Positions 24,488 through 30,903 of a stretch of DNA of 64,000 nucleotides are shown one piece after another. Under the pieces are notes generated by a model, which saw only the letters and a program-made list of their open reading frames with translations, was not told where the DNA came from and did not search any database. A program made the position numbers and the translations under genes. The stretch is from assembly GCA_016795365.1 (NCBI GenBank), contig JAEUHN010000017.1, forward strand, positions 186,001-250,000, in the 5' to 3' direction. Source of the stretch: Verrucomicrobiaceae bacterium. GTDB taxonomy: Bacteria; Verrucomicrobiota; Verrucomicrobiia; Verrucomicrobiales; Verrucomicrobiaceae. Positions within the stretch are counted from its first letter, which is position 1, and every line of letters starts with the position of its first letter.

Positions 24488-26503
24488 TCACGGCGGCAGC
24501 ACCGAGATGAGCAGCTGCTGCACGTTGCCATCAAACGGCGTGCTGTTGGGGAACAGCTTCGTCTTCAGCGGACCAAAGCTCTCGCCTGCCTGAAGGCCGA
24601 CGCCGGGTTGCATGGGGAAGCCGCCAGCGAAGGGCGCGGCATCGACGATCTCGCCCACACCGGGCACGGCCAGCGACATCGTGCCATTGCCAGGAATCAG
24701 CGCGCGCACCACGGTGGGTCCGGCTTCTAGCGGCTCGACCGCGATGGCACTGCGCTGGCCATTGATGAAGAGCGACAACGTGGGCGCACCCGCGACGAGA
24801 TGCAGTGCCCAGCCGTTCTGATCACTGCCCTGCGAGACGAGCGTGCTGTCCTGATCGACCGCAGGCGTGTAGTCGAAGCGCGTGATGATCGACAAGCCGC
24901 GACCTGTGATCTGTGGTGAAGCGTTCGCAGGCAATTCGTCACCGGGCTGGAGGAAGTAGTTCGCGCCGCCATCGGCGCTCGCGATGGGACCGAGCTGCTC
25001 GACGCTGCGATGCGCACTGTGCCACTCCGTTGGAAAGAAGGCGGCGAGCGATTGCTTCAGCGCTGCGTGCTCGGGCTTGGCGGCGAGATTGGTCCACTCG
25101 TTCGGATCGGTGGCGTGATCGTAGAGTTCCTCGCTCTTGTCGGCATAGCGAATGTAGCGCCATTGATCCGTGCGCGCGCTGTAGCTCACTCGCGCCTCGC
25201 CACCCATCGTGGTGATCGCGGGATGCGTGCGCTTGGTGGCAGGGGCCTGCAACAGCGGCAGCAGGCTCTCGCCGTCGAGGTGCTCGGGCTGCTTGAGCTT
25301 CGCGAGATCGCAGAGCGTGGGATACACATCGATCAAGCTGACGGGCTCAGCGCTGACGCTGTCGGGCTGCGTGACGCCGGGCGCATAGATGGTGAGCGGC
25401 ACATGCGTCGCGCGTTCCCAGAGCTTGCCTTTGTGCCACATCTGCTTCTCGCCGAGATACCATCCGTGATCGCTGGTGAGGCAGATGATCGTGTTCTTCG
25501 CGGCAGGCGAGCGCTCCACGGCATCGAGCAGCTTGCCCAACTGCGCATCGGCAAAGGTGATGCATGCGAGATAAGCACGCACGGCATTGGCCCAGAGGTT
25601 GTTGGCGACAATTTGCTGATGGTAGTTCTCGCCGCCGCTGAGATGGCCTTTGGCAAAGGCTGGCACGTCGTCCAGGCCGTTGGCCTTCACCTCGGGCAGC
25701 TTCACTTCGTTCAACGGACGCTCGTCGAAGTAGGCTTTCGGTGCATACCAGGGCGAATGCGGTTTGTAGAGTCCCACCGCGAGGAAGAAGGGTTGCTTCG
25801 AGCGATGCTGCTGCACGAAGTCGGACGCCCACGCGACGGTTTGGCCGTCTTCAGTTTGTTCGTTCGTGACATCGATCGGACCCCAGTCCCAGTGCCAAAT
25901 GTTGAGCCCGTTGAAGTTCTGTCCCGTGTGCACCGGTGCCTCGGCGAGCTGCACACCGGGTTGCGGGAAGCGCACATCCCACGCCACATCCTGCTCAAAG
26001 CCGCGCCGTCCACCATGCCATCCGGCGAGTCGCGCCTCGGGTCCGCCATGGTTCGCGTGGAAGATCTTACCGCCCGCGGCAGTCGTGTAGCCCATCGACT
26101 TGAAGAACTCGGGCAGCGTGGGCTTGCCGAGGACGTTGATCGAGCGCCGCCAGTCCTGCTCATTGCCGAAGACACCGCTCGATGCCGGTGCCATGCCAGT
26201 CATCAGCGCCGCGCGCGACGGATTGCACAAGGCATACGTGGTGTGCGCGTTCGTGAACCTCATGCCCAGGCGTGCCAGCCGGTCCATGTTCGGCGTGCGT
26301 GCCTGTGGATGTCCGCCCAACCAGCCAACCCAGTCGTTGAGGTCATCCACGATGATGAAGAGCACGTTCGGCTTGCCTGCCGCGCTTGGCACTTTCACCG
26401 GCATCGCCTTGGGCACCGTGGCGGACTTCTTTTTCTTCGTTGCCGCGACAGCCATGCACGGCGTGAAGAGCACGAGGCAAAGAGCAAGCAGGAGGCGCGG
26501 CAT
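24488..26503 (-). CDS. Exported sulfatase (iduronate-2-sulfatase-like)
   Basis: A protein of 671 residues with a signal peptide (MPRLLLALCLVLFTPCMAVAA), a Lys/Pro-rich linker, and a full type I sulfatase domain: 'VLFIIVDDLNDWVG' (metal ligands D-D), active-site 'CNPSR' whose cysteine is converted to formylglycine, 'GKIFHANHGG', 'SDHGWYLGEKQMWHKG', typical of iduronate-2-sulfatases. The C-terminal 150 residues form an extra beta domain rich in Gly/Pro. It would desulfate sulfated polysaccharides in the periplasm; activation needs a formylglycine-generating enzyme or anSME not seen here. A second sulfatase lies at the right edge of the window. It is divergent from nspC, with a 89-base spacer. 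Confidence 0.88.
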   Translation of the reverse strand: MPRLLLALCLVLFTPCMAVAATKKKKSATVPKAMPVKVPSAAGKPNVLFIIVDDLNDWVGWLGGHPQARTPNMDRLARLGMRFTNAHTTYALCNPSRAALMTGMAPASSGVFGNEQDWRRSINVLGKPTLPEFFKSMGYTTAAGGKIFHANHGGPEARLAGWHGGRRGFEQDVAWDVRFPQPGVQLAEAPVHTGQNFNGLNIWHWDWGPIDVTNEQTEDGQTVAWASDFVQQHRSKQPFFLAVGLYKPHSPWYAPKAYFDERPLNEVKLPEVKANGLDDVPAFAKGHLSGGENYHQQIVANNLWANAVRAYLACITFADAQLGKLLDAVERSPAAKNTIICLTSDHGWYLGEKQMWHKGKLWERATHVPLTIYAPGVTQPDSVSAEPVSLIDVYPTLCDLAKLKQPEHLDGESLLPLLQAPATKRTHPAITTMGGEARVSYSARTDQWRYIRYADKSEELYDHATDPNEWTNLAAKPEHAALKQSLAAFFPTEWHSAHRSVEQLGPIASADGGANYFLQPGDELPANASPQITGRGLSIITRFDYTPAVDQDSTLVSQGSDQNGWALHLVAGAPTLSLFINGQRSAIAVEPLEAGPTVVRALIPGNGTMSLAVPGVGEIVDAAPFAGGFPMQPGVGLQAGESFGPLKTKLFPNSTPFDGNVQQLLISVLPP

Positions 26504-26574
26504 GGCGTCGATGTGAAGCACTGCGCGCCGTCGCGCACAACAGCGAAACTGGATGCCAAACGCGGCGAACCCGC

Positions 26575-26580
26575 TAGCAT
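26575..26580 (+). promoter_or_regulatory. Start-proximal -10 element (TAGCAT) before nspC
   Basis: TAGCAT ends 12 bases before the nspC ATG at 26593. It is identical to the hexamer placed 9 bases before the ATG at 40709. There is no clear -35 at normal spacing. Confidence 0.3.
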
Positions 26581-26592
26581 CGGCGCTCCCCC

Positions 26593-27798
26593 ATGAGCAG
26601 CCACTTCGACGCCGACATCCCCCCGCACGTCTTTGACCAGCCCGCGCCACGCTTCGATCTCGAGCGCGTGCAGACGCCGGCGTATGTGGTCGATCTTGGC
26701 CTGCTGAAGCAAAACCTGGAGAAGCTCGCGATGGTGCAACGCGAGGCCGGCGTGACGATCCTGCTCGCGCTCAAAGGCTTCTCGATGTTCTCCACCTTTG
26801 GCCTGGTGAAACAATACCTTGGTGGCTGCTGCGCGAGTGGTTTGCACGAAGCGCTGCTGGCGCACGAGGAGTTTGGCAAGGAGGTGCACGTGTATGCGCC
26901 CTTCTTCAAAAACGAGGAGATGAAGCAAATCATCCCCATCGCCGACCACATCAGCTTCAACTCGATCGCGCAGTGGAAGAAGTTCCGCCCGATGATCGAA
27001 GCGGCGAAGGCCAAAGGCCATGCGCCATCGCCGGGTCTGCGCGTGAACCCCGAGCACGGCGAGGTGGAAGTCGAACTCTACAACCCGTGCTCACCCGGCT
27101 GCCGTCTCGGCACGCGCGCCGACAGCATCCATCCTGATGATCTCGAAGGGCTCGAAGGCCTGCACTTCCACGCGCTCTGCGAGCAAGGCAGCGATGTGCT
27201 GGAGCGCGTGCTGGGTGCCGTGGAGCAGCGCTTCCCGAAGTTCATCGAGCAGGCAAAGTGGATCAACATGGGCGGCGGTCATCACATCAGCCGCAAGGAC
27301 TACGACGTGGAGCGCCTCATCAAGCTGCTACGCACTTTCAAGCAGCGCTGGGGCAAGGAGCACGTCTATCTCGAACCCGGCGAAGCGATCGCACTCAACA
27401 CTGGCTACCTTATTGCCAGCGTGCAGGACATCGTGCCCAGCGATGTGCCGACCGCCATCCTCGATGTCTCCGCCACCGCTCACATGCCGGACACGCTGGA
27501 GATGCCATATCGTCCGCACATCATTGGTGCCGGCTGGCCGAAGGATTTCCCGCATCGCTACAAGCTCGGTGGTCCGACCTGTCTCGCGGGCGATGTGATC
27601 AACGAATACTCCTTCCCTGAGCCGCTACAGCTCGGGCAGAAGCTGGTCTTCACCGACATGGCGCACTACACGATGGTGAAGACCACGACCTTCAACGGCG
27701 TGCCGCATCCCGACATCGACATCTACGATCCTGAGACGGACGAGCTGCGCGTGGTGCGTCGCTTTGGCTACGAGGACTTCAAGCGGAAGCTCTCGTAG
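26593..27798 (+). CDS. nspC: Carboxynorspermidine/carboxyspermidine decarboxylase
   Basis: A PLP-dependent fold III enzyme of 401 residues. The PLP lysine is K61 in 'LLALKGFSMF'; other family motifs are 'CCASGLHEALLA', 'GLRVNPEHGEVEVELYNPC', 'GLHFHALCEQG', 'WINMGGGHHISR' and 'LEPGEAIAL'. It decarboxylates carboxyspermidine or carboxynorspermidine, the last step of the alternative spermidine pathway. The partner carboxyspermidine dehydrogenase is not adjacent and must be elsewhere. The next gene is convergent 17 bases away, so this gene is probably monocistronic. The ATG 26593 agrees with the length of known NspC proteins. Confidence 0.93.
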   Translation: MSSHFDADIPPHVFDQPAPRFDLERVQTPAYVVDLGLLKQNLEKLAMVQREAGVTILLALKGFSMFSTFGLVKQYLGGCCASGLHEALLAHEEFGKEVHVYAPFFKNEEMKQIIPIADHISFNSIAQWKKFRPMIEAAKAKGHAPSPGLRVNPEHGEVEVELYNPCSPGCRLGTRADSIHPDDLEGLEGLHFHALCEQGSDVLERVLGAVEQRFPKFIEQAKWINMGGGHHISRKDYDVERLIKLLRTFKQRWGKEHVYLEPGEAIALNTGYLIASVQDIVPSDVPTAILDVSATAHMPDTLEMPYRPHIIGAGWPKDFPHRYKLGGPTCLAGDVINEYSFPEPLQLGQKLVFTDMAHYTMVKTTTFNGVPHPDIDIYDPETDELRVVRRFGYEDFKRKLS

Positions 27799-29034: not shown

Positions 29035-30903
29035 ATGGTGAACGCCCTTCGCTCCATGCCTGCTCCCGTTCCCAAGCCCGTGTCCAAACCCTCCGTCAAG
29101 TCTGCGCCGGAGCCCGTGGTTCCAGCTCCCAAAGGCTATGTCGCACTCACGCTCTTCACCTCCTGGCTGGTCAAGCTGACCTTCCTCGTCTGGTCGCTCG
29201 GTGAGATTTCCACGGTAGCCTTTCACGCGAGCAGCAGTGCGTTGACGCCGTTTTGCGCCTGGCTGGGGCTGCTGGCCTTTGCCTTGCAGGTGTATCTGGT
29301 GGCGAGCAGTTCGTCGGACCTGGTCCGTGGGGTGGCGGTGCTGCGTGGACTGGATGCGCAGGCCGGGCAGATGGAGGTGAGCTATCGGAGTCAAAGTGTG
29401 TCCGAGTTCTGGAATCGCTGCCTCCAGTCGTTCACCAAGTTGAAGCCGGTGGCCTGGATGGCTCCGATGCTGGTGGTGCTCGCATCGTTGCCCTACCTCG
29501 GCATCGGGCTCTCGCAGCTGGCATGGCTGGCGATCATGCTCCTGCTGCTGGTGATCGAGCAGCGCGTGTGCGGTGGCAAGGCCCTGTGGCATCGTCTGCC
29601 GCGAGTGCTGCGGACCTTCCTCACCTTTGCCGTGATCACGGTGAGCTGGGTGTTCTTGCGTTCGGCGAACATGGACCATGCGATGCACTACCTCGGGGCG
29701 CTTGCTGGTCGTTGGGATCTAACGGAATCCGCATTGATCACGGAAGCTCGACTCACCTCGGACTCGAATCTGCTCATCGTCATCATGAGTCTTATCATCG
29801 TCGTGGTGCTGCCTCCCTTGCAGACCCTGATCGAGCCGTTCAAGCGCTGGAAGACAGGGCTCGCGGTCGCCGCCTTGGCCTTGGTGATCATGTCCTTCAC
29901 GCCCCACTGGGCGAGCCTGATGCATCGCGTGATGAAGCGCGGCAGCGAGAGCGTCTTCGCCGGGTATGGCGGCTGGTTGTTCGATGCGCGTGAACTCAAT
30001 GCCCTCAGCGGCTGGGGCGCCTTGCAACCTGAGTTGAGCGCTCCTGGCAAATCGCTGAGCACCGCACCGCAGGGGGTGCTCGACTTTGCCACCAAGCTCA
30101 AAGAACGCGGGGTGCCGCTGCTGCTGATCCCGCTGCCGATGAAGGCGTCCATTTTCACCGAGCACATCACCGGCACCGATCCGGAGTTCAGCGAGGCGCC
30201 GCTCTACCACGACAGCCAGCCCGCGCTCTACGATTTGTTTACCAAGGCAGGCATCGACGTCCAGGACCTCACGCAGGCCATGCTGCAACTCAAGGAACGT
30301 AAGAAGCCCGTCTTCCTGCGGCAGGACTCGCATTGGACTCCTGAGGCCGTGCATGAGCTGGCGAAGCAGATCGCTGCGTATGTGAAAAAGAAGTATCCCG
30401 AGGCGGCCTCCGATCATCCGCTGATCATTGATGCCAAGGCACCCGAAGGACACAGCCTCGGCGATCTGGCGCAGCGGCTGCGACTGACCAGCCCGCTCTC
30501 CTCGTTGAGCCCGGAGACGGCCGTGATGGTGAGCTTCCCTGGCATCGCCAATGATCCCGCCTCGCCGCTGGCCCTGATCGGCGGCAGCGACCTCCGCATC
30601 TACGATGATCCCCAGCTCGGCTTCAGCGACGACGGTCAGGCCCTGCGAGCCAGCTTCGTCCAGCACCTGGCGCTCTACCTTGGCCACCCCATCGATGCCT
30701 ACACGCAACGCGACGGCCATCATCAGTTCGCACGTCGGCTCGACGATGAAGTGCGGGAGAAGAAGCTCGTCATTTGGATCGTGCCTGCGCGCGACCTTCT
30801 GCAACCCGCCGCCTCCTCACTCGAGTGGAAACCCGTGACCTTCAATCCCGAACGCCGTCCGCCTCAGGTGCTCACGCCCATGGTGCCGGGCGCAGGGAAG
30901 TGA
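29035..30903 (+). CDS. Degenerate MBOAT (AlgI C-terminal half) fused to AlgX/AlgJ-like SGNH domain
   Basis: A protein of 622 residues. The N-terminal half is polytopic (segments from about 38, 70, 135, 160, 195, 235 and 280). Residues about 65-235 align to the second half of AlgI-type O-acetyltransferases: 'SVSEFWNRC' corresponds to AlgI SITEFWRRW, and 'ALWHRLPRVLRTFLTF...SWVFLRS' to the conserved last helices. The stretch where AlgI has its Trp-His-Gly and second histidine reads 'ASLPYLGIGLSQLAWLAIM' (near residues 151-169), with no histidine. Residues about 300-620 are an AlgX/AlgJ-like SGNH domain: 'GYGGWLFD', D431-S-H433 in 'RQDSHW', and S518 in 'LIGGSD', so its catalytic set is intact. 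It may modify or deacetylate an exopolysaccharide, consistent with the downstream glycosyltransferase, convergent after one base. ATG 29056 is an alternative start. Confidence 0.72.
   Translation: MVNALRSMPAPVPKPVSKPSVKSAPEPVVPAPKGYVALTLFTSWLVKLTFLVWSLGEISTVAFHASSSALTPFCAWLGLLAFALQVYLVASSSSDLVRGVAVLRGLDAQAGQMEVSYRSQSVSEFWNRCLQSFTKLKPVAWMAPMLVVLASLPYLGIGLSQLAWLAIMLLLLVIEQRVCGGKALWHRLPRVLRTFLTFAVITVSWVFLRSANMDHAMHYLGALAGRWDLTESALITEARLTSDSNLLIVIMSLIIVVVLPPLQTLIEPFKRWKTGLAVAALALVIMSFTPHWASLMHRVMKRGSESVFAGYGGWLFDARELNALSGWGALQPELSAPGKSLSTAPQGVLDFATKLKERGVPLLLIPLPMKASIFTEHITGTDPEFSEAPLYHDSQPALYDLFTKAGIDVQDLTQAMLQLKERKKPVFLRQDSHWTPEAVHELAKQIAAYVKKKYPEAASDHPLIIDAKAPEGHSLGDLAQRLRLTSPLSSLSPETAVMVSFPGIANDPASPLALIGGSDLRIYDDPQLGFSDDGQALRASFVQHLALYLGHPIDAYTQRDGHHQFARRLDDEVREKKLVIWIVPARDLLQPAASSLEWKPVTFNPERRPPQVLTPMVPGAGK

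Follow-up and report, generated by a model that had tools for sequence, protein, structure and literature searches.

The window, that is, the whole 64,000-nucleotide stretch of DNA analysed here, encodes a 622-residue protein in which the C-terminal half of an MBOAT, stripped of its catalytic histidines, is fused to an SGNH domain of the AlgJ/AlgX type. The protein belongs to a family of similarly reduced MBOAT–SGNH forms found in 48 genomes, and both of its halves are maintained by purifying selection. From the pattern of losses and of selection, we propose with moderate confidence that the half-MBOAT in this family would act as a scaffold that carries the SGNH domain and takes no part in acyl transfer.

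MBOAT–SGNH pairs are regarded as acyl relays. If the pair persists in a clade without the acyl donor site, the shuttle, and usually the acceptor, that clade would be a set of natural separation-of-function mutants. It makes testable whether such pairs also serve as scaffolds, be it in binding or exporting polymers or in the assembly of envelope complexes. Titles and abstracts in the open-access literature held nothing matching pseudo-MBOATs or gutted MBOAT–SGNH pairs. The parts of the canonical relay are well described. MBOATs have an invariant histidine on TM6′ and one further catalytic residue, and their re-entrant loop-2 connects TM5′ to TM6′ (PMC12979248). In PatAB, the tyrosine of the C-terminal MBOAT hexapeptide (FXYXXF) is auto-acetylated, and an acetylated hexapeptide gives its acetyl group to the SGNH protein (PMC12148441).

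Results

Gene and domain layout

The gene and its parts lie at the following positions of the window.

29035..30903, + strand: whole gene, fusion of half-MBOAT and SGNH domain; 622 residues plus stop, ATG start; the 92% ortholog in genome G001 is intact
29035..29139, + strand: N-terminal tail, residues 1–35, rich in proline and lysine; model confidence low for residues 1–23
29140..29904, + strand: half-MBOAT membrane domain, residues 36–290, with about seven predicted TM helices (HMM, model helices, hydropathy)
29407..29424, + strand: retained FW..R motif, residues 125–130 (FWNRCL), with L130 in place of the RRWH histidine (alignment)
29488..29502, + strand: place of the WHG motif, residues 152–156 (LPYLG), with Trp replaced by Y154, His by L155, and Gly kept as G156 (alignment)
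29536..29538, + strand: place of the third conserved histidine, now M168 (alignment)
29893..29934, + strand: fusion joint, residues 287–300; FxYxxF and the N-terminal TM anchor of the SGNH protein both absent (alignment)
29932..30804, + strand: SGNH domain of AlgJ/AlgX type, residues 300–590 (Pfam ALGX, Foldseek AlgJ 4o8v)
30325..30333, + strand: D431-S-H433 of the DxHW motif; Asp and His each in 45 of 48 half forms
30586..30588, + strand: S518, the nucleophile position, in GGSD; at a strand–helix junction in the model
30805..30900, + strand: C-terminal tail, residues 591–622, resembling the end of the SGNH protein from the two-gene pair in genome G010 (VTFNPER...PP)

The gene is probably transcribed alone, since its upstream neighbor is divergent and its downstream neighbor convergent. 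With five Lys and Arg residues against one Asp or Glu, the N-terminal tail is probably cytoplasmic, and hydropathy and loop charges together point to some seven TM helices, an N-terminus on the inner side, and an SGNH domain on the outer side of the membrane.

The membrane half and what it has lost

The first-pass annotation had described the membrane half as the C-terminal half of an AlgI-type MBOAT and had proposed a profile search. ALGX is the sole Pfam family that scores above the cut-off in the window protein, and the Pfam MBOAT family (PF03062) gives no match, so that the search bore out the SGNH assignment (E 1.5e-22) directly and the MBOAT assignment through a custom profile. The latter, built solely from full-length MBOATs of Verrucomicrobiota with no fused sequence included, matches the membrane half over HMM positions 196–462 with an E value of 1.2e-31. 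When every ORF in 40 loci was scanned, the matches at 1e-3 were confined to MBOATs and members of the window protein's family. Alignment with full MBOATs shows that the first ~190 residues are absent, as is the segment around RDYLYIPLGGNR, and that W126 of FW..R is retained.

The catalytic histidines are indeed missing, as had been claimed. In numbering counted along the profile alignment with DltB, H289 has become L130 and H336 has become L155, and the RRWH, WHG, and third-histidine positions read L130, Y154-L155, and M168, respectively. The re-entrant loop-2 segment that follows FW..R is gone, and so is the C-terminal acyl-shuttle hexapeptide FxYxxF, at whose expected position the fusion joint falls.

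Structure models

An AlphaFold2 model of the window protein, computed from an alignment of this protein with the locus proteins, has a pLDDT of 87.7 and a pTM of 0.86. Foldseek matches it to SGNH structures only (AlgJ, AlgX, PatB1, and a DHHW protein), with an E value of 1.5e-12 and a TM-score of 0.73 on the target for AlgJ 4o8v, and to no MBOAT. The expected structural resemblance to MBOATs was found instead in a relative: the model from locus L047 (pLDDT 92.0) matches DltB structures with a probability of 1.00 and an E value of 5e-3, and, more weakly, PORCN and HHAT with E values above 0.1. For the window protein, whose own model matches only SGNH structures, the structural check proposed in the first-pass annotation is therefore not cleanly passed, and the MBOAT assignment rests on sequence homology. 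In a search with a profile of the half forms alone, DltB comes immediately below AlgJ and AlgX, with an E value of 0.016 that is marginal, and the profile of the whole family also matches DltB.

The SGNH half

Pfam ALGX (PF16822) matches residues 307–494, and the match ends at profile position 174 of 268, before the block that contains S518. The first-pass annotation had called this domain intact. S518, D431, and H433 (the last two in the DxHW motif) are present as it said, but the term is generous, since block I reads GGSD in the window protein, compared to GDSF in 16/16 two-gene relatives, and GGDD, with Asp at the serine position, in the sister genus G008. In AlgJ, the middle residue of this block varies (GTS), and GGS need therefore not mean a dead enzyme. 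The SGNH domain of the window lineage may be an esterase, and with the letters of the Ser-Asp-His triad kept, deacetylase activity is possible in this lineage.

A serine-based deacetylase would not hold for most of the clade. The serine is found in only six of the 48 half forms and replaced in 42, by Asp in 18 and Glu in 18, with G, A, Q, and P in the same column, although the Asp and the His of DxHW are each kept in 45/48. Because the column is acidic in 36/48 and the other two residues persist, the SGNH domain of most relatives is probably not a Ser hydrolase and would rather be a pseudoenzyme or have a changed chemistry. One version of the latter would have the acidic residue, next to Asp-His, bind a metal or serve as a carboxylate nucleophile in most of the clade, leaving the window lineage as a serine-bearing branch; the 36 acidic residues and the preserved Asp and His fit this idea, but the column also accepts G, A, Q, and P, and an acidic residue may be merely tolerated after loss of function, so that we assign the idea a low probability. 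Two fused relatives, G011 and G015, retain GDSF; they, or the few members that still carry the WHG histidine, may have kept partial activity.

Two-gene, fused, and split relatives

Homologs of the protein occur in 64/68 genomes of the window's own family. The two-gene form consists of a full MBOAT of ~475 residues followed by an adjacent SGNH protein of ~550 residues, and is found in many genera of this family as well as in other families of the order (e.g., at loci L044, L052, and L053). These two-gene pairs are homologous to the window protein in both halves, their SGNH proteins being about 41–45% identical to its SGNH half over the best-matching stretches, and the SGNH protein of G010 even shares the C-terminal VTFNPER tail. 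In all 16 pairs analyzed, the three histidines are kept, the SGNH protein has GDSF, and the MBOAT ends in FxYxxF, whereas the MBOAT of the window protein is halved, fused, and chemically stripped.

The 48 genomes with half forms comprise 25 with a fused gene (the window included), 22 with a split form, and one in which the gene lies at a contig end. In the split form, a half-MBOAT of mostly 221–229 residues is followed by the SGNH gene, and stop and start codons overlap in 21 of the 22 pairs (15 ATGA, 6 TGATG). FxYxxF, present in 16/16 two-gene MBOATs, is found in 0/25 fused and 0/22 split forms. Likewise, none of the 47 half forms with a readable membrane half has the full set of histidines: all 25 fused members have lost histidines, although some keep one or two of the positions, and the His-bearing helices are absent from all 22 split forms. 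G156 is invariant in 22 half forms. Neither a remnant of the N-terminal MBOAT part nor a frameshift was found ahead of the fused genes. A view of the MBOAT half as a non-catalytic remnant joined to an SGNH enzyme, put forward from the window alone, is thus strengthened by relatives that share the loss. The new relay that had been offered alongside it is very unlikely: the donor histidines, the re-entrant loop-2, and the shuttle tyrosine are all missing from the window protein, and the acceptor serine is gone in 42/48, which together speak against an acyl relay of the known type by this protein.

The split forms also bear on the role of the membrane half. Their SGNH proteins have a hydrophobic N-terminal segment of their own, and the half-MBOAT is nevertheless kept as a separate gene in 22 genomes, which suggests a role beyond anchoring.

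When genome contigs were scanned with the window protein on its own, the 92% ortholog was the only hit. Beyond the family, in a class-wide draw of 286 genomes, MBOAT and SGNH matches were separate, with no single ORF matching across both halves. A named relative among the genomes searched is the Verrucomicrobiota MAG KLAP44. In one genome of the large genus g9, G043, a fused half form coexists with a divergent two-gene pair that is followed by a second SGNH gene (loci L104, G043:C211, and L073, G043:C144).

Evolution and selection

In the SGNH tree, fused forms appear at four places. The window protein groups with G001 and G008, G015 falls within the two-gene genera, G011 is sister (99/94) to G017, a two-gene member of its own genus, and the fourth place is the large genus g9. 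A single origin of all half forms was rejected when the SGNH tree was constrained to one clade (AU p 3.8e-5). In the half-MBOAT tree, one branch splits the fused from the two-gene forms (92/98), but the branches are very long and we used this tree neither for nor against a single origin. As the two trees conflict, several origins are favored but not proven. In g9, truncation probably came before fusion, because the split SGNH proteins keep their hydrophobic N-terminal segment.

The half-MBOAT–SGNH gene is maintained by purifying selection in both halves. Between the window protein and its G001 ortholog (92% identical), dN/dS is 0.16 for the gene as a whole, with 0.205 for its membrane half and 0.091 for its SGNH half; two fused pairs from g9 give 0.09 and 0.18, and the split halves 0.14–0.22. 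Local decay of the window copy, which the first-pass annotation had named as a refuting outcome, is ruled out by these values together with the conserved half-form family (0/47 with the full histidine set; omega 0.16). A slower decay of the whole clade, in which the fused gene would be a functionless relic on its way out, might be read from the erosion of catalytic residues in both partners. We consider it very improbable, since the reading frame is open in dozens of species, omega values of 0.09–0.22 contradict a relic, stop and start codons overlap in 21/22 split pairs, and invariant columns include W126, G156, P368, K370, W434, and F541.

The stronger constraint on the SGNH half would fit a tethered esterase, in which S518, H433, and D431 would deacetylate an envelope polysaccharide and the half-MBOAT would be a mere anchor in place of the SGNH protein's TM segment. 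The triad letters are shared by the window protein and its ortholog, and the fusion does eliminate the SGNH protein's own TM anchor. Yet the serine has been lost in most relatives, the sister genus G008 among them, and a bare anchor leaves the separate half-MBOAT gene of the split clade unexplained. We think this reading unlikely. The conserved remnant, under selection across the family, suggests a role independent of acetyl transfer, as the scaffold reading would have it.

A possible partner in trans

Full MBOATs, which the first-pass annotation had proposed looking for, exist elsewhere in the window genome. There are three, each ending in FxYxxF and each beside its own SGNH-like protein, one of which matches ALGX, whereas the other two have GNS...DxDH motifs without a Pfam match. 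The suggestion that the window protein is the partner of a separate MBOAT, receiving acetyl groups from its tyrosine shuttle, could draw on these three shuttles and on Ser-Asp-His letters able to accept an acetyl group. No orphan MBOAT was found in the genome to serve as such a partner, however, and Pfam MBOAT has no match in 14 g9 genomes that carry a half form (89–97% complete). A separate MBOAT is therefore not generally required by the half form. With the acceptor serine missing in most relatives as well, transfer in trans appears decidedly unlikely.

At L060:8021-11751 (contig C32 of the window genome), one of the three MBOATs stands in a row with an SGNH-like protein (GNS...DADH) and a third protein, in which a site for phosphopantetheine attachment and a weak match to a hot-dog domain are seen. 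This arrangement resembles an acylation system linked to a carrier protein.

Discussion

A model for the reduced family

The comparisons show that the MBOAT of a two-gene, polymer O-acetyltransferase-type system was cut to its C-terminal half, which removed the catalytic histidines, the re-entrant loop-2, and the tyrosine acyl-shuttle tail. The remaining half was then fused to its SGNH partner or, in one sister clade, stayed a gene of its own, with its stop codon overlapping the start codon of the SGNH gene. For the function, we propose that the half-MBOAT would no longer move acyl groups, and would be a membrane scaffold that anchors and positions the periplasmic SGNH domain. In the window lineage, this domain may act as an O-acetyl esterase on envelope glycans, or as a transferase using another donor, and in most relatives it would probably be a pseudoenzyme whose role is non-catalytic or altered.

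More speculatively, MBOAT–SGNH acyl-relay pairs may have a second function, other than acyl transfer, that survives the loss of the relay chemistry (donor histidines, re-entrant loop, shuttle tyrosine, and usually the SGNH serine) in several lineages independently. The remaining complex of membrane and periplasmic parts would then be what is selected, and in most cases the retained Asp-His would stand next to an acidic residue at the former nucleophile position. We offer this extension as a tentative one that is rather unlikely to hold as it stands.

Comparison with known systems

The SGNH domain of the window protein resembles AlgJ and AlgX in both sequence and fold. AlgI, however, is a separate, full MBOAT, whereas the window protein has neither donor site nor shuttle. 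The PatA/PatB and DltB/DltX/DltD systems appear to share the same pair of folds, to judge by the matches of the family profile and the L047 model to DltB, but their relay elements, namely two histidines, a tyrosine hexapeptide, and a serine (PMC12148441, PMC12979248), are wholly or partly missing here. Fusions of the OatA type (AT3–SGNH) are likewise one polypeptide in which a membrane domain of acyltransferase type precedes a periplasmic SGNH domain (PMC12148441), but AT3 is a different membrane family from MBOAT, and the membrane domain of OatA is active and has its own acyl-Tyr. For genes such as those described here, an ALGX domain alone is unsafe ground for annotation as an acetyltransferase.

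Gene neighborhood

The window gene is not surrounded by an alginate locus, and the half forms have no universal gene neighborhood that would indicate a pathway. A sulfatase gene lies at 24488-26650 (− strand) of the window, and its ORF cluster recurs near the half-form family in four other loci; as sulfatases are abundant in the phylum, there is probably no real link. In one subclade, the half form lies behind a gamma-glutamyltransferase. In a subclade of g9 (L049, L050, L066, L071, and L072), the fused gene immediately follows two genes, one of the hydrolase_4+Methyltransf_20 type and one of the PAP2+dual-specificity phosphatase type, which resemble E. coli ynbC and ynbD, and in L050 and L071, a gene of the prolipoprotein diacylglyceryl transferase (lgt) family follows it. 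For this g9 subclade, the neighbors make a link to lipids or the envelope possible.
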